From Branchiostoma lanceolatum (taxonomy: Eukaryota > Chordata > Leptocardii > Amphioxiformes > Branchiostomatidae): DNA of 64,000 nucleotides. Numbering within the stretch: position 1 is the stretch's first letter; each line of letters starts with the position of its first letter. Positions 5,138-62,451 of the stretch are shown here, one piece after another. The notes beneath the pieces are model-generated. The model was not told the DNA's origin. It ran no database searches and saw nothing but the letters and a program-made list of their open reading frames with translations. A program made the translations under genes and the position numbers. The stretch is from positions 11,372,734 through 11,436,733 of the forward strand of contig NC_089738.1 in assembly GCF_035083965.1 (NCBI RefSeq), in the 5' to 3' direction.

Positions 5138-5545
5138 GTGTAACTAGATATTCGGGTAAGTCATGCTGACTCGACATTTAACATATGCCAATCTCATGGG
5201 TGACCGTAAGAACATTGTTTACAAGCCGGATGATAAGTGAGAATTCAATAGTTGACCGAGAGAACATTGTGATGTGACAAGATATTCAGGTAAGTCATGC
5301 TGACGTCAAGTTTAACATATGCCAATTCCATGGGTGATCGTAAGAACATCGTTTACTAGCCAGATGATAATCTGAATTGAGAATGCGATACTTGACCTAG
5401 AGAACATTGTAATGTGACAAGATATTCGAGTAAGTCAACCTGACTTGACATTTAACATATACCAATCCGATCAGATGACCGAAAGAACATCGTTTGCTAC
5501 GTGAGAGTTCAATAGAAGGCCGTGAAACATTGTGATAACGATTTA
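5138..5545. repeat. Tandem array, three diverged copies, about 135-140 bp each
   Basis: The words AGATATTC, AAGTCA(T)GCTGAC, TTTAACATATGCCAAT and AGAACATTGT recur in order. AGATATTC starts at 5145, 5280 and 5420, giving periods of 135 and 140. Copies differ by scattered substitutions and small indels. No coding capacity. Confidence 0.8.
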
Positions 5546-6538: not shown

Positions 6539-6883
6539 TATAGGCACATTAACAAAATCTATGTCCGACCAGGAATTTTTAAATTTTACTTTCAGTTGAT
6601 AGGGCACTTGATATGTATTTGAAAACTGAAGACCGCAAAATTATATCGTTTATGGTGACGGAGCCTTAGGTGTTCGAAGTTCCGCCCGGCATTGCCTAGG
6701 CATTGTAGCCTATAGGCACATTAACAAAATCTATGTCCGACCAAGAATTTTTAAACTTTACTTTCAGATGATAGGGCACTTGATATGTATTTGAAAACGG
6801 AAGACCGCAAAATTATATCGTTCATGGTAACGGAGCCTTAGGTGTTCAAAATTCCGCCCGGCATTGCCTAGGCATTGCTTGGG
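6539..6883. repeat. 172-bp tandem duplication
   Basis: The segment starting TATAGGCACATTAACAAAAT at 6539 recurs at 6711 with a few substitutions. Both copies end in GCCCGGCATTGCCTAGGCAT. The few differences suggest a fairly recent duplication. A hairpin element follows directly. Confidence 0.85.
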
Positions 6884-11464: not shown

Positions 11465-20203
<8,739 letters not shown>

Positions 20204-20639: not shown

Positions 20640-21262
20640 GTACGTCTGTACGGTATGATTCAATGTGATTGTTTGTTTTCCAAGGTAGATATCTATAAGA
20701 GTAGAATTTTCATCATGAAATCAGAATGCATGTGGGTATATTCTCTGTAAAATACTCAACCGTTACAAGCTTGAAAGAAATACATTGCAGCTACTGCACT
20801 GGCAATTTGATATGTTTTGGGTACATTTGATTGAACTGGTTGTGTTTGTTTATATAGGTGCGTGTACTTGTTGCTGTGTTTTGAATGTTGTAAGAGTTCA
20901 TCTATCAAGTAGTTAACATTGACAGCATATAGCATTCACTTCTAAACTTCTAAAAGTATTTCAGTGGGGTGTTGACGTTATATAAAAAGACAAACACTTG
21001 TGTCTTGTTGTGTAGTGTTCTGCCCTGATTACTCCCCTAATTGCAGTAATTATAATGATCATGCGGCATCTGGTTAATTGTTGTTTGTGCTGATTGCATT
21101 CTCCCAAAATCAGACCACCTGTTAGCTATGTCATGTAAACAATTTGTTAAAAATAAATCAGAACAACCTCCAAACTTGATTTATAAATATGCTTTTCAAT
21201 TAATCACTCACAATTTTTGCCTTCAACTCTTTTTACAGAGATCAAGCTAGAAACTAGCTGCA

Positions 21263-23303
21263 ATGGTTTTGTTCATCAATGTTCACGTGGGTCAGCGCGT
21301 TGAGGTGCTGTACCACGGGCGGGTCGAGCACGGGACTGTACGCTACACGGGACATCTCAACGGGATGAGGGGCAACTGGGTGGGCGTGGAATTTGATTTT
21401 CAAGGTATGCATTTTAATGGGATTCTAAAGCTCTTTAGTATTGAGCAGAAATCTCAAGTCACAATATCATGGTTATATAGCATCCTCACGTAAAGGTTCT
21501 TAGTTTTTCCTTAGTTGCATGAATAGAAAACAATAAGATACAGGAATTCTTATGGCTTCTATTTTCATTTTCCTCTTCAGTTTTAACGTTAACGTTATAG
21601 ATTTTTTTTCAATTCTTGAATAAATGAAAGTCTCCATTTGTCTGTATTTCTAGAAAAACGAACATTCCACAAGTGTCATACAACAAAACAAAAGGGATGT
21701 TTTTCAAATAGTTTATGATAGAACACTTTATCTCATGTTTATCTTGATGTAATAACTGTTATGATTTTATGATGATCCAGTTGGGAAGCACAATGGCACG
21801 TTCCTGGGCCGACACTACTTCTCGTGTAAGGACGGACACGGCGTGTTTCTCCACGCCTCCAGACTCAGGTTCGAAAGCACCATGGGAAGGTGGACACACG
21901 ACCCCTACAGAACCGTCAGTCCCGTGTCCGAATACGACCCTCTGCTGTTCGGGGAGAGGGAAAGTGAGTTGGTCAAGATTTCATAAACTTTACTTTCATT
22001 CAGTTGTTCATTTGTTCATTCACTTGTCATTTACTTTTGTTTGAGATAATCCAATGGGCCAAGAGTGACATTTTTATATAATAGAGTAGCATTTTTGTAC
22101 TTGTACACAAAATTATCATGAAATGGAAAGATTGTAAACTGTTGTTGTTTTTGTTGTTGTTGTCTTCACAGGGCCAGAAGTGAGACGTCCAGCCAGTGTA
22201 ACAAGGTCATATAAGGACCAGGCTGTGGAAGCTTTCCCTGGTAAACACATGTCATTGTCTCTGTGGTGTTCTCAGGAGATCATGATTTTGATACAAAGAT
22301 GTTTAGTTTAAAGGTACATATTGCAGAATTTCGGCCTGAAACTGCAAATTTTCAGAATCTAACAAATCTCCCTTCAGATTGACATTTGCAACATATTTCT
22401 AACATTTTTCACAATTGAAGCATTGGTAAACAAGTTAAAGCAAGCCATGCAAAGTCCCCTAGCTTTTGTTAGCCAACCCAAAACTCCCCAATAACTTTAA
22501 CATTTCTATAAATTTGTACCTTTAATGGCATTAGATTCTTTACATTACATATGACAATATGTTAGCATAAAATATGTTGCAGCAAGAATGACGTGGTAAG
22601 GTTCATTTTATCCATTTATCTATCTATCTAGGCATTTATGGATCATACCTTCAGTAGACAAATCGATTTTCAAGGGAGAGGACAATACAACAGCTGCACA
22701 ATGCAAAACATACACGCAGTACCGTAAATCAAAGATATAGAACAGAACGGACAAAGACATGCAGACAAATCATCATTAATCATTGTCAAACACAAGGCAA
22801 GTCTGTTGCTCTAGAGCAAGTACAAAATTGGTCTGTTGAACTAAACGCAATTGTTGGACAATGTTTATTTGTATCCTTATGGGAAAAAAGGCCGGTATCT
22901 ATTGTTTACTTTTAGTTGTTTTTTGCTGGGAGTCTCATGCGACCATTGGAGCTGGCTCAGGCTAATTTGGAAAAGTTAACTTGTGGCAGCAACCAAATAT
23001 GACATCTGTTTTCTTCTTCCAGGTGTTCGCTCCATTTTCTCATCACCGAGAAACTACCACCTGTCTCACTCCGTGGGGAACCACATTCCCGCGGCGACCA
23101 TGCGACCGCAGTCCGCCATGTCCGCCTTCAGCTACACCTCGTCCCCGGTACACGAGGAATATGACCCGTACGAGAGACAGTTCATCTCGAGTCCGACGAT
23201 TCCGAAGACACACATGCCACACTCGGCACAGATTGCCATGGCTAGGAGGGGTGGTTGGGACAGGTATGGGCTGAGTCTGCCCAGGGAACTCACCTATTAT
23301 TGA
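21263..23303 (+). CDS. Small CAP-Gly domain protein
   Basis: Four coding exons: 21263-21404, 21781-21963, 22172-22240, 23023-23303 (675 nt, 224 aa), all GT-AG and in phase. A 5' UTR segment starts at the acceptor 21239 and joins an upstream leader exon. Residues about 5-75 form a CAP-Gly domain, a microtubule-plus-end and EEY/F-tail binding module: GTVRYTGHLNGMRGNWVGVE, then GKHNG at the place of the usual GKNDG signature, then HGVFLHASRL. The rest is a low-complexity linker with Tyr/Pro/Ser and a C-terminal block (SPTIPKTHMPHSAQIAMARR) ending ELTYY. I do not recognise a named orthologue. The single CAP-Gly and short length suggest a microtubule or cilium adaptor rather than a CLIP or dynactin p150. 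Probable poly(A) signals are AATAAA at 23515 or 24494. Confidence 0.9.
22308..22525. mobile_element. MITE-like element with TTTAAAGGTAC ends
   Basis: It starts TTTAAAGGTACATATTGCAG and ends GTACCTTTAA. It shares interior words (ATTGACATTTGCAAC) with 4528-4897. It lies in the last intron of the CAP-Gly gene. Confidence 0.55.
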
Positions 23304-27353: not shown

Positions 27354-43427
<16,074 letters not shown>

Positions 43428-46396: not shown

Positions 46397-46402
46397 TTTA
46401 TT
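46397..46402 (-). promoter_or_regulatory. Candidate poly(A) signal of the MyTH4-FERM gene
   Basis: Reads AATAAA on the minus strand, 16 nt beyond the stop. This would give a very short 3' UTR; a second AATAAA lies at 46108-46113. Confidence 0.4.
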
Positions 46403-46417
46403 ACATGTATTAATACT

Positions 46418-49400
46418 TTATACCAGGACACTTTTGTTGGTAAGAGAAGATTCTTTCTCACGAAAATCTTGATAAGCTTTCACTAAGTCGTCGATCTGAG
46501 ATGCCTGTGAAAGAAGAAAGAACGGAAATGAAATATCAAAATCATCATAGATGTGAACCATGTGATACAGTATTGTAAAAATGTTATAAAGAGAGTGGAA
46601 GGGGGAGATATAATTTGGTCAGTGGACGAATCACAAGCGCCTCCTACCGCCGACGTCGTGAGCTGCCATGTGTTCTCCAGGCCGTTCCCCGTCACCCACA
46701 GGTGCCTGGTGTCGCCGCTCGTCTCAACCTCGTCAAATGCCAGACTGACGATCGTGTTCTACGTGTCAACACAAAAACTTACAGCGCTGTTTCAAATACT
46801 ATCATCGTAGATTCAGAAACTATCCAGGCAAGAAGATTCCAACCCACCATATAGTAGACCATTCCCTCCGGCAAAACGTAGGAAAGCAAAATAAAGACAT
46901 AACAAATATTTGACGGACATGAATCCACTCTCTCATTGGTCTAGCCATGATATCATTGGTTGAACTGCTGATTGTGATGTACAGTTAGGATCAGGATTTA
47001 GGTTGACACCTGTCTATTTCACTGCCGTCTTGTGACAGAAGTTTTACACGTTACCTTACTGTTCTGGTCCATGAACATTAGTCCTCGTCTGTTGACGGCG
47101 GCCATGAGTTTTTCCGGGTACTTGCGGTAGTCGTGTCTCTGTACGAAAAACAAAGAACACATGGTATAGAGGACACTAGAACAAAAATGTACCTAGAACG
47201 GCCATACATGGGTCTATTGACTATTCAGTTTTCTCAGCCGGGGAAGTAGATTACTTCGTCGTGTGATGATGTAGCTTGTCTGTTCAGAGACGTCTAGTGA
47301 AAATAAAATGTATCACTGTACGGCACGAGGTGTGAAAGGATCAACCAACAAAGCCATACATCTGCTTGGAGATTCCTGACATGTAACGTTACCTCTATGT
47401 GAAAGAATGCTGAGCCGAAGGTGGGCCATGTGCTGACGTGTCTTAGGAACGCTAGCTTGGCGTCATCCCTGTTCAGCCCGGCGTGGCGGTTAAACGTTGC
47501 GACGATGTCCTGCAATGTAGCGCAACAAAGTAGCCATATCAAACTTGGAGAAAGTGTTTCATATTGAAAAAAGAATACACTTTGGCAACAATTTTGGCTC
47601 CTGATTTGTAATTGCATGCGCTCACAATGGATCGGAGTAAGACAAAACAGTGACTCTCAAACAGTATCACAACGTCTCTTTGTATTTTCAATGTACTTAC
47701 CACATCCGCGCAATTGTACTGACCATTTCCAGTTTCAACGCCCTGATGATGCTTTGGAAGCCTTTAATAGAATTGAAATAGCCCTTGCCTAGTCTCTACT
47801 AGACACCTCTTGGAACCAAGTCGATGATTTAAGAATTGAGCAAAATTGGCTATCATATGCATTTGCCAAATGAGTCAGTAGGCCACAGAGATGCAGGGTG
47901 CCAATTTCTACCATTTACGGCGTCTAAAAAGAGTCCTACAGAGAGAAGCTGTAGCCCTAACCTGTTTCCAGTGCTCTGGTGGCTCGATCTGTAGTAGGTC
48001 TCTTGGAATGAGATCTTTCAGAACCTCTCTGAAAAATGATAACAATTACCAGCATAGTTTCGTTAATAACACTGTATAAGCGACAGAAACTGTAGTTCCT
48101 TTCATTGATGATTATAACATTCAATCTAGTTAGTTCTATGAGGTACTAGGTGAAAAGAAGTCGTTTGAAACATACATTTGTCCAAAGACATATTGATATC
48201 TATATGCATGGTATCCAGGACTTACGCAGTTTTCTTGTCGTCGTGAAGTTCAAAGCCAGCCTGTCCGAACCTGACCCTGTACAAGTACGCCGCCAGCTGG
48301 ACAGCCTCGCTCTTACTGCACTTGTGGTGGCCGCTCAGAAACGACTCCAACTCCTGTTTTACGGCAAATTGGGATAACTCCATGCGACATTTTACGGAAC
48401 TTCACAAAACATTCTTGCAGTTGTGATCTTGAAAAGAGCCGAATAAATTCCCATATTGTCGGTGATATTGGTGAGATGGCTCAAAATCGGTCATCGCACT
48501 GGATGTACTACAAAAATAAACAAACGATCAATCTGTCAAGTAATTGTTTTGGTGATAGCATTCACATTTTGTATTTCACAGCGCTTCAAGTGCGCGTAGT
48601 GAAAACTGCGGACAAACCTGAAAGAAGTGCATGCGCATGTCTGCCACAGAGTCTTCTCCCACCATGACGTCAGTCCACACTTTCCTTCGGAACAGCAGGT
48701 CGTACTCGGCGTGTTCTCTCCAATTAGATGATACTGTTTAAAGGGGCGACAAATTTTTGTCGTTGTGGGCCTTCGTAGCTATGGGCTACGGCAGCCCGTT
48801 CAGATGGCAAGTTCAGCACCAAGGACAGGTCCATGTAAGGAAGTAGCGTTCCTTCGTACCGCACAAGTACACGTCATATATGACGTTGTGTTGAACGAAT
48901 CCAGCATGTTAGGCCTTCTAATGGTCTTACTAACATATCGTAAGACATATGCACAAACAACAACCATCACCGAGATACGGTAATAAAAAAAGAGGAAGAA
49001 ATGCACCTTCCGAGCTGAGCCATTCTGCGAGCGGTCTGATACTGCAGAGGAAGTCAAAGTAGTAGTCGCCATGCGGGATGCTGACCACTGCAAATATGTT
49101 TGAAACAGATTTACACTTAGATACAGTGGATACTAATGTATTCTAGGATAATATTCTGATATAACCATTTGTTATGACTAGTACTTAACCATTAACGCAT
49201 CACATCATAATATATTGTAGCATATCTATATTCAGCGACGCTACTGTATTTGAAAGATATATCGTCCGATAATACTCACCTTTGTCTGCTACCCTGCAGT
49301 ACAGACTTATTCCGCCAGTCGTCTTGAGTCCAAGTTTATTGGCGACGTCAAGGCACAGGTCACCTCCACGGCTGGAGGATTCTACAGCTATCGCCTGCAG

Positions 49401-51516
49401 TACACATGAAATCTGTGAGATGGCAGCCATGGACATGCAACCAATCAACAAAGTTACGAAAGTTAGAAAACATCCAGGATTGCTTTTTGCTATTTCCTCC
49501 ATCTTTATCAGCACCCTACATCACTAACGGATGAATATTTCATCACAACACCATTTAGACGAACTAATCAAAGAAACGCAGTACCACTGTAGACTTGTCC
49601 GGCAAGATCACTATTTGTCCCCATGAACCACTTTTCTTCTGCACTGTGTGTAGTTCAAGAGGGTGGGGAGGGGAGCGTCGGTTGCCTAGTCTAGGATTGA
49701 GAAAACAGTAATTACTTAAATTTGCAAATCTGTTTACATAAACGGGATGCTAACATACAATAAAGACACAACAAAAGACTTAATTGTAAGCAAGGACAAT
49801 ATATACATAATACCTTAGACACAAAGGGAAACAGTTTTAACACAACTATTTAACGTGACATTTTTACAAAATGATGGTTATCTGCATATTAGAAGCCTGG
49901 ATTGAAAACTCGTATGACTGTGGCGTTTTACAGAAAAGTTAAAGCCACTTCGATTTCGATATACTTACTGTACGGTCCTTTCCAGTCTGAGTAGACAGTC
50001 ACGTGCCAAAGGAGAGCGTCGTTTGTGAAGTAGGAATGACGTCACATGGAACCTCAGAGGCTGGCTGTGGAATCATTAGAAGATCAGAAAGTCAAAACAT
50101 CAGTCTTGAACTGACTTGACAAATGAAAATGTAGACAATGACACTATGATGTTACTAACAGTAATGTTAGTTATAGTGATGTCAGAGACGAAACAAAGTA
50201 CCAACCACGCGACGGATCGCCTCATATAGGTTCATCACATCTTATGTTATGGAATATACGTGTTAATATGTAATATGCACTACAAACCTGCAAGGAAAGC
50301 ATCCAGCACACAACCACAGGAGCTCCCAGCAGCGGTCTTCATTGGAACTGCAGGTAGGAATAGATGTAGACTGTCCAACAAAGCTATTTTCTGCATATGA
50401 TGATGATCTGAGTTGCGTATCGTTGAATATAGCATTTACATCATCATTACTATCGCATACTATTGCTATGTATACTCACCGCTTTTTATTGTTGGTCAGC
50501 TGCTTGACGAGTTGGCAGTACAGTTCATCTTGGAGACTTTCCTGTGATCAAGAAATGTACATTTTACTGCCCGTGGAGAAGACCAACGTCATGTTAGGAG
50601 AAGATGCTCCTGACTGGAAGGAATAAAAGTCTCGCTAGGGAATATGCATGAAAGCACCTGTCACACATTCAGAACCTTCACACGAACCTTTGTTCCCGAC
50701 TAATCCCCAACCAAGGTCGACGCGGGTTGGAAGTAGCTTGAAATTCATGTTGTTGTTTTTTAGCTCAAGTTCGCGTCTAAGCAGAATGTGACTTTTCCGG
50801 CTTGATTTGTCAATTTATAGTGTGCTGGGAACCTTCCCGATCAACTCCCTACAACAGATGGTCTTGCGCACGGCTTACTCCAAAGCATTGTCTGCAGGAG
50901 GTCGGGAGGCCAGGGTCAGGTCATGGTGTGACAGGGGCTTAAAACATGCGTCTATCCATACCCGTTTTATAACCTGTCTGAAGATATGTTCCACCAGTCG
51001 GGTGTCTTCGGCCACGTCCTTCAGAGACTTCCTGGCCGAGTAGAGGAGAATGTCCGTGAACATGGTGACGGCATCCTGACACAACTGTCTGTCGGCAGCC
51101 ACGGTCCGCAGCAGGGCTTTGCCGAGAGGTTTACTGGAGAAACTCCAAATCTCCTGTTCCTTTTCCGTCCTTCCCCTTGCACAGCAACCAGTACGCCCCT
51201 CGTCAGGAGTGGTAGGGTCTGGATCCCTGTTTGAATGACAGGCATCACAAACGACATCTCATAACCATGATAGCACTTTATCTCACCTTTTGATTCCGCT
51301 CATTTTACAACAGTACAGAGTAGTACAACGTTGTATAGTACTAGTACCATATCGTTACAGTTGTAGTGCAAAATTAAGCAAAACAAGAAAGATACGCTGT
51401 TTTCAGACTTTTTCTTTTTGCAGAAACACAGACCGAACCCACTGTGTACCGTACCTGAAGTGGTCGTAGCTAAACTCCTCCCATGTTGTGACATCACAAA
51501 ACGGCGACATGGACAT
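46418..51516 (-). CDS. Motorless myosin VII-type MyTH4-FERM protein
   Basis: Fifteen coding exons (minus order): 51455-51516, 50974-51226, 50480-50541, 50288-50347, 49969-50064, 49585-49690, 49280-49394, 49007-49087, 48618-48733, 48226-48353, 47962-48028, 47393-47509, 47055-47138, 46648-46758, 46418-46504; GT-AG and in phase, 1545 nt, 514 aa. Residues about 1-177 are a MyTH4 domain with its lead-in: EEFSYDHFR, IWSFSSKPLGKALL, DELYCQLVKQLTNN, CWELLWLCAGCFP. Residues about 185-514 are a FERM domain: IPHGDYYFDFL, SGHHKCSKSEAVQLAAYLYR, LKDLIPRDLLQ, WPTFGSAFFHIE, and SQIDDLVKAY near the end. The match is to the last MyTH4-FERM unit of MYO7A (EEFSYDYFR, WPTFGSAFFEV). The family binds microtubules and cargo. 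No SH3, IQ or motor exon is visible upstream: an in-frame TGA precedes the ATG, and ATG16L1 starts 2.3 kb away. An upstream exon using the AG just before the ATG cannot be excluded. Confidence 0.9.
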
Positions 51517-53029
51517 CCTAAACTCTCCTCAGAAACCCAGACTTCCTTTGAGACGTAAAATCACCCTTAGCAGTTCTTCCTTCACCACTTATTTACCTAA
51601 AAATCTCTCAGAGTTTCCTCTCTGTGTTTTTTCTACAGGCGGCCCTGTTTTGTGAGCGGGTATGAAGTCCCGTGGAGTTGGGGTTGCCTAGGTGACCCTA
51701 TAGCAGTCTGAAATATGCGATTCCAGCAGGCACGTGGGGCGTAGGACAAATACAATTTGACCGGAGACTTGGTTTCATTTGCTGAAGACAACAAAGGACA
51801 GCAGATGTTGTCATGATATCGACTTGAGTTGACGAGCCTATGCCGAAATTCCGATGTTACGCGTTGTTTGAAGTTTATCAAAAGTACAATTTATCCACCG
51901 ACCACAAATATCAAATCAAAACTGATTTTTTTTTAATGGCATGAATACTTCCTCTCAAATATCAGGCACCCTTGAAAACAATGGTTGTTATATCATTTGT
52001 ATCAATGCCTTTCGCTCTCGAATCTTGATGTAAATCCACTTAGGAAACAATTGATACACACAACGTACTATTATGTTCATAGCATTCCTATTTACACACA
52101 AAACCACTGTAAATGATATTCTTCTGTTTCCCGCGGAATAGTTTTCGTGGTGACAAATGTTCCTGCCAAGACGATCTTTTCTGCTTTTTAGTGAGCACTG
52201 CGGGAACACCGGCTCCCCTTTCACCCAGCAACACAAGTCAGGTCTACTACACGCTAAGTACGGAGTGGGAAAATTCCGTGAACGTGTGTGCTTGTGTGTA
52301 GCCGGTATTCTTCATATCGCTTTGTTGTAGCAAACGTGCTTAGAGCACCAAGGAATAAATTGCACATGTAAGTGATTGATAATATAAGGCTGTTATATTG
52401 AAAAGTGAGATATATTTGAACGAAATAACGCCGAGAAAACGGGCATATCTAATACGATAACGACCGCGCTCTGGAGCTCTTAAGACAAGGTGATCTGCAT
52501 CACAACAAACGTGGGCTAGAGGGCGCAGCCGCAACCAATGAAGAGGTATGGCATGGACCACGGACACGCGACATAAAAGATGAAACGATTTGAGCCACCT
52601 CGATTACTCAGGGGGATACTAAAAAAACTAGCTAATTCAAAAATGAATATGAGAATGCGATCCACCTTCAACGTTTCTTATGCGTCATGGATACGTCACA
52701 TATATAATTAAGACATATTATCTTATCGATATCATTCCTGTATATCACATATGCAAACCATGACAACACATATCTTCATGTAGAAACTGTGAGCGCATTA
52801 TATCATATTCTGTACATTTCTTTGTGTTTTTCTTTTCTTTTTCTTTCTTTCACATAGACAGCTATGCGGTAACGGCATCAGTGCATACATACATGAAAGA
52901 GTGACATGATAAAAAAACATACCAAAAATCAGAACCATCACATTTATAAGCTCCAAAAACAACCAAATCACAAAGCACCAATAACAAACTAACCATCTAA
53001 ATCGTTAGACATGAAGGATGAGCAAGTCG
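51517..53029. other. 5' region of the MyTH4-FERM gene
   Basis: No SH3, IQ or motor-like exon was found on the minus strand, and no other gene on either strand. Minus-strand frames at 51633-51881, 51988-52236 and 52340-52567 have no homology that I recognise. The sequence is AT-rich with pyrimidine runs near 52830. Confidence 0.5.
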
Positions 53030-53101
53030 GCGTTGGTGGTGTAATGGTCAGCATTGTTGCCTTCCAAGCAGTAGATCCGGGTTCGATTCCCGGCCAACGC
53101 A
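53030..53101 (+). tRNA. tRNA-Gly (anticodon TCC)
   Basis: 72 nt. The acceptor arms GCGTTGG and CCAACGC pair perfectly. The anticodon loop is CTTCCAA between paired TTGC and GCAG, giving anticodon TCC. The B-box GGTTCGATTCC is intact with its CCGG stem. A TTTT terminator follows at 53107-53110. It lacks an encoded CCA, as expected for a nuclear gene. The gene is intronless and looks functional. Confidence 0.95.

Positions 53102-53789: not shown

Positions 53790-62451
<8,662 letters not shown>

Follow-up and report, generated by a model that had tools for sequence, protein, structure and literature searches.

A lancelet gene model for a free-standing second MyTH4-FERM module of class VII myosin

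The window analysed here is a 64,000-nucleotide stretch of the genome of the lancelet Branchiostoma lanceolatum (assembly GCF_035083965.1, contig NC_089738.1, positions 11,372,734 to 11,436,733), and its central feature is a minus-strand gene, running from 51516 to 46418, whose predicted product corresponds to the second MyTH4-FERM module (MF2) of a class VII myosin tail; it is referred to below as the MF2-only gene. A preliminary description, made from the letters alone, had proposed fifteen in-phase exons at 46418..51516, and these assemble exactly as proposed into one frame of 1545 nucleotides (514 codons and a terminal stop) that is open throughout. The 14 introns, each of them GT-AG, measure 132 to 452 bases, and 13 of them carry in-frame stops; intron 14 is stop-free, yet its length of 143 bases is not a multiple of three. 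The G+C fraction is 0.53 in exons, 0.63 at third codon positions, and 0.39 in introns.

Exon 1 (51455..51516; all exons on the minus strand) holds the ATG and the linker MSMSPFCDVTTWEEFSYDHFR. The preliminary description had the protein begin at EEFSYDHFR; that linker is present, but MSMSPFCDVTTW precedes it within the same exon. The start ATG has an A at -3 and lies behind an in-frame TGA 15 bases upstream (51529..51531, minus strand; tga gga gag ttt agg ATG), at which upstream translation in this frame would end. MyTH4 begins in exon 2 (50974..51226), continues through exon 3 (50480..50541, ESLQDELYCQLVKQLTNNKKR), exon 4 (50288..50347), and exon 5 (49969..50064), and ends in exon 6 (49585..49690), which also opens the F1 lobe of FERM. 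F1 occupies exons 7 (49280..49394) and 8 (49007..49087), the F1/F2 junction falls in exon 9 (48618..48733), and F2 takes up exons 10 (48226..48353) and 11 (47962..48028) and ends in exon 12 (47393..47509, WPTFGSAFFHIE). The F3 lobe is encoded by exons 13 (47055..47138) and 14 (46648..46758), with its last helix in exon 15 (46418..46504), which also supplies the C-terminal tail to SVLV and a TAA stop. An AATAAA polyadenylation-like signal lies 16 bases 3′ of the stop (46397..46402, minus strand), with a second at 46113-46108. The SVLV terminus might, at a guess from its letters, act as a class II PDZ ligand.

Judged by similarity, the gene product is the MF2 of a class VII myosin, as the preliminary description had held. 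Pfam places MyTH4 (94.9 bits) and FERM_M (73.8 bits) above their cut-offs, with the weaker FERM-lobe-like models RA_2 and KRIT1_FRMD8_FERM_C below theirs, and finds no match to motor, IQ, MF1 (the first MyTH4-FERM module), SH3, or PH in the 514-residue protein. In a phmmer search of PDB sequences the MYO7A MF2 (5mv9) scored 359 bits (E 3e-106) and the MYO7B MF2 chains (5mv8, 5xbf, 5mv7) 298-300 bits, compared with 129 bits for the MYO7B MF1 (5f3y) and 118 bits for the MYO7A MF1 (3pvl). Among the 60 of 68 matches listed, where MyTH4-FERM proteins were represented by class VII, class X, and Dictyostelium chains only, the Dictyostelium chains reached at most 54 bits and myosin X at most 31 bits. 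Four chains labelled Myosin-I heavy chain (5ejq, 5ejy, 5ejr, 5ejs) are presumably Dictyostelium Myo7. Identity amounts to 185 of 476 residues (39%) with the MYO7A MF2 and 158 of 478 (33%) with the MYO7B MF2 (5mv8). These scores reject an origin from MF1 and from a myosin X or Dictyostelium-type module, and the earlier placement in class VII over class X is borne out by score (359 against at most 31 bits).

A tree of MyTH4-FERM modules comprising five sequences (the MF2-only protein with the MF2 and MF1 modules of MYO7A and MYO7B), and containing no myosin X, Dictyostelium, myosin XV, myosin XXII, or PLEKHH sequence, set the MF2-only protein outside the vertebrate 7A and 7B MF2 pair (Shimodaira-Hasegawa-like approximate likelihood ratio test 97.3, ultrafast bootstrap 93). 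The approximately unbiased (AU) test rejected a grouping with the MYO7A MF1 (5e-95), which adds to the case against an MF1 origin, and one with the 7B MF2 alone (0.0105), while a position as sister of the 7A MF2 alone was borderline (0.052). By this topology the duplication may predate the split of 7A and 7B, although a fast branch drawn to the MF1 outgroup would look alike. No second MF copy was found in the window by tblastn with the protein, the three other matches having E values of 2.6 or worse, and the idea that several MF fragments lie here in tandem was dropped on the same grounds. A pattern search of bacterial and archaeal genomes gave eight matches, none of which was confirmed as a relative.

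The intron positions connect the gene to its presumed parent. Papers on splice variants of human MYO7A document exon boundaries after c.5168 (PMC5788640), c.5742 and c.5856 (PMC3581446, the former following from A1915_K1952del, the product of exon 42 skipping), c.6051 (PMC3611938), and c.6558 (PMC13140121). Once projected onto the lancelet gene by way of the aligned proteins, four of these five boundaries are identical in codon and phase to ends of exons in the MF2-only gene, namely c.5168 with exon 1 (codon 21, phase 2), c.5742 with exon 6 (codon 213, phase 0), c.6051 with exon 9 (codon 317, phase 0), and c.6558 with exon 14 (codon 486, phase 0), and c.5856 lies one base off the end of exon 7. 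For 14 introns placed randomly, the binomial probability of at least four exact coincidences comes to about 3e-8, and none of 200,000 random placements exceeded two. Further human boundaries, which we take to lie at c.5326, 5480, 5636, 5944, 6237, 6354, and 6438, gave five exact coincidences and, within a gapped part of the alignment, one boundary that misses by 9 bases, while 5326 is without a counterpart. Introns 2, 4, and 10 of the lancelet gene are without a match among all the human boundaries compared, documented and assumed. Because intron positions coincide with those of MYO7A, the gene derives from the genomic DNA of a myosin VII tail rather than from mRNA. A retrocopy is ruled out by the 14 introns and the exact parental positions of four of the five documented boundaries, in agreement with what the preliminary description had concluded from the number of introns.

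The origin of the first exon can be narrowed in the same way. A human boundary is also reported after c.5043, so that the human counterpart of exon 1 would start at codon 1682. The lancelet ATG stands about 21 codons before the end of exon 1 and behind a stop, and for this reason the start codon seems to have arisen within the ancestral exon for the linker between SH3 and MF2. A search of 45-54 kb for signs of a young, repeat-mediated duplication gave one pair of 30-base repeats at 70% and nothing more.

Upstream of the gene, 53 minus-strand open reading frames (ORFs) of at least 30 residues between about 51.5 and 56.3 kb had no Pfam match at E ≤ 1, including motor, IQ, SH3, MF1, and PH, and 15 further minus-strand ORFs of at least 60 residues, up to 64 kb, had no Pfam match either, the latter length threshold putting short exons beyond 56.3 kb below the reach of the scan. 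The earlier claim that the gene lacks a motor agrees with these results, no motor, SH3, or MF1 match having appeared in the ORFs tested. As a control, the same scan applied to ten chosen exon-bearing ORFs of the MF2-only gene recovered FERM_M at 48.6 bits (cut-off 23.8) and MyTH4 at 21.4 bits (cut-off 27). CpG observed/expected ratios upstream of the gene (0.72-1.1) show nothing distinct. An ATG16L-type gene (ATG16 coiled coil, 122.6 bits in Pfam; WD40 repeats) occupies 53790-62448 on the plus strand, head-to-head with the MF2-only gene, and the two coding starts are 2.27 kb apart; between them lies a plus-strand tRNA-Gly gene (anticodon TCC, 53030-53101). Human MYO7A and ATG16L2 are both on chromosome 11, and MYO7B and ATG16L1 both on chromosome 2, and by this comparison the MF2/ATG16L neighbourhood may be an old linkage.

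Conservation along the protein is uneven, and the fold seems to be protected. Sites shared by 7A and 7B are kept at 8 of 9 positions in the linker, 53 of 91 in MyTH4, 23 of 53 in F1, 38 of 66 in F2, and 15 of 52 in F3. At positions of disease-linked MYO7A variants in MF2, taken from a partial list in the available literature that includes some variants without proven causality, the human letter is kept in 16 of 22 cases against 185 of 476 overall (P 0.001), and when only sites identical in 7A and 7B are counted, in 15 of 20 against 137 of 271 (P 0.019). This preferential retention points to selection on the fold. The human letter has been replaced at the other six, L1851, G1982, K2021 (in the groove), R2061 (to K), K2118, and G2187. 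Three surface positions have been tied to harmonin binding, G1982, K2118, and G2163 (PMC5493754); the first two are changed in the MF2-only protein and the third is kept, and MYO7B, a harmonin binder, likewise differs at G1982.

The residues through which MF2 is known to dock on the motor and on harmonin present a different picture. According to PMC12402077, head-tail inhibition of myosin VII requires the R and K of an RGSK motif in MF2, and paired basic residues are implicated in the same inhibition of Dictyostelium DdMyo7 (PMC8352590). In the MF2-only protein, residues 477-480, encoded by exon 14, read ENTW opposite the RGSK of 7A, and LENT stands opposite the motif of 7B, which itself is RGSR. 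As residues 468-494 contain no R or K at all, the absence of RGxK is independent of the alignment register. For harmonin, the MYO7B contacts described in PMC5493754 are W1895, Q1914, K1918, R1921, F1923, S2082, L2083, and K2086, a numbering verified on the sequence of the PDB chain. The corresponding series W, Q, K, R, F/Y, S, L, K reads W, Q, S, S, H, S, A, Q in the lancelet protein, with three of eight identical: W298 and Q317, both in exon 9, and S485. Exon 10 contributes S, S, and H at groove positions 321, 324, and 326 in place of K, R, and F/Y. Either R1921E-F1923V or L2083W is reported to abolish harmonin binding by MYO7B (PMC5493754). Since RGSK is gone and K1918 and R1921 are both serine, the protein would be expected neither to inhibit a motor in trans nor to bind harmonin in the known mode, and the partner is probably something other than harmonin bound in that mode. 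The suggestion in the preliminary description that the protein is a competitor of complete myosin VII for cargo or partners is weakened by these same replacements.

We consider it fairly probable, from sequence comparison, that the MF2-only gene encodes a retained, foldable, motor-independent MyTH4-FERM adaptor that arose by genomic duplication from a myosin VII gene and has another partner. The segment from the SH3-MF2 linker to the stop would have been duplicated as genomic DNA, introns included, would have gained its own start at the ATG just 5′ of the EEFSYDHFR linker, and would have been kept and expressed as a separate gene. Its product would be a 514-residue MyTH4-FERM protein free of motor, light-chain sites, MF1, and SH3, most likely folded as an MF2 supramodule and acting as a cortical or membrane-cytoskeleton adaptor through the FERM groove. 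With RGxK and most of the named harmonin contacts gone, another ligand in the groove is most likely, rather than titration of harmonin or trans-inhibition of myosin VII. A broader proposition is more tentative, namely that a family of MyTH4-FERM adaptors arose through partial duplication of myosin VII, the fold being selected while the docking motif and cargo contacts were shed and a new groove ligand was taken up. If true, the locus would be a natural experiment on the myosin VII tail module without its motor, would make the MF2 residues needed for the fold (kept) separable from those for head docking and harmonin binding (lost), and would document how a cargo adaptor can be born when part of a motor gene is duplicated, introns included.

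Several observations weigh against this interpretation. The control of the upstream scan covers MyTH4 and FERM only, not SH3, IQ, or motor. A possible splice acceptor at 51517, directly 5′ of the ATG, scores 1.1 bits, within the range of -0.1 to 9.9 bits that leave-one-out scoring gives for the acceptors of the 14 real introns, and a stronger one at 51545 (5.0 bits) would yield a 5′ untranslated exon containing the TGA; these two acceptors leave room for a noncoding exon upstream and, with less likelihood, for a spliced coding one. F3 is poorly aligned, the 7A and 7B alignments being one residue apart at the motif (ENTW or LENT). Groove sites identical in 7A and 7B are kept at three of seven positions against a background of 137 of 271 (P 0.49), and because they are not lost faster than other such sites, their replacement may reflect no more than general divergence. 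The idea that the harmonin groove was eroded in particular was accordingly discarded, the groove appearing simply unprotected, and the groove could still bind a peptide related to that of harmonin.

The last of these points leads to the alternative of a motorless competitor, in which the product would titrate the MF2 partners of myosin VII in the manner proposed for headless myosin X, described as a cargo competitor in PMC6345916. The module is the same, about 58% of the 7A/7B shared sites survive in MyTH4 and likewise in F2, W298, Q317, and S485 of the groove are retained, and the groove overall is no worse kept than background; set against this are the changes of K1918 and R1921 to S, F1923 to H, L2083 to A, and K2086 to Q, at positions that include those whose mutation abolishes harmonin binding (PMC5493754), together with the missing RGxK, and we regard such competition as unlikely. 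It is distinctly unlikely that the gene is the 3′ end of a full-length myosin VII gene, with further exons beyond the tested region or lost to an assembly misjoin and with the ATG as an internal methionine. The acceptor at 51517 would permit it, but the in-frame TGA, the upstream ORFs free of Pfam matches (at least 30 residues to about 56.3 kb, at least 60 residues to 64 kb), and the opposite-strand ATG16L-type gene all speak against it, and the sole myosin VII tail of a chordate would be expected to exceed 39% identity to MYO7A.

An untranslated pseudogene or dying duplicate would fit the strong divergence of F3, and is nevertheless quite improbable given 514 codons in an uninterrupted frame, GT-AG ends at all 14 introns, a high G+C at third codon positions, and the preferential retention of disease-linked sites; were every diverged codon free to vary, a frame still free of stops would have a probability of about 1e-8 to 2e-6. 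Assignment of the module to another MyTH4-FERM class (XXII, XV, or PLEKHH) gains some room from a tree free of myosin XV, metazoan XXII, and PLEKHH sequences, but is very improbable in the face of the EEFSYD linker as in MYO7A and MYO7B, the 39% identity extending over 476 residues, and the MYO7A intron positions.

Motorless MyTH4-FERM proteins of other kinds are familiar in animals. PLEKHH1-3 and Max-1 carry PH domains ahead of their MyTH4-FERM unit, whereas neither the MF2-only protein nor the upstream ORFs show a PH match, and the MyTH4-FERM here is of the myosin VII type. Full-length class VII myosins are the source class of the module: with the MF2 of MYO7A (5mv9) and MYO7B (5mv8, 5mv7, 5xbf) the lancelet protein shares the whole module from linker to last helix, and with MYO7A its MF2 introns, and it differs from both in having no motor, IQ, MF1, or SH3 match, in ENTW for RGSK, and in five of the eight harmonin contacts. 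Headless myosin X (Hdl-Myo10) is likewise a MyTH4-FERM tail protein without a motor, but it is an isoform of the full Myo10 gene with membrane-placing PH domains (PMC6345916), whereas the present case is a separate gene model with no PH match. Duplicates of class 7 myosins have been reported, including in insects, and the available text of PMC5583752 mentions no tail-only class 7 gene among them. No tail-only myosin VII gene was found in the literature searched, which took in few subscription papers, and within that literature a gene consisting of a lone myosin VII MF2 is a variant not met before.

The remainder of the window holds pieces of several other genes, whose types, like the ATG16L-type neighbour, are in keeping with an animal genome. 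On the minus strand are those of an Angiomotin-family gene at 27357-34573 (Angiomotin_C, 56.8 bits) and of a TAF6-type gene at 14701-18930 (TAF6_C, 45.4 bits; TAF, 31.5 bits), while two plus-strand ORFs at 21251-21983 contain pieces of CAP-Gly domains (CAP_GLY, 64.3 bits, two stretches). Tandem duplications occur at 35652-36178 (period 263 bases), 6539-6877 (period 172 bases), and 5139-5499 (period 134 bases). In the angiomotin region, a tandem repeat with a unit of 48 bases (27493-27720, 4.8 copies) overlaps the ORF at 27357-27932 and might specify some five repeats of 16 residues.

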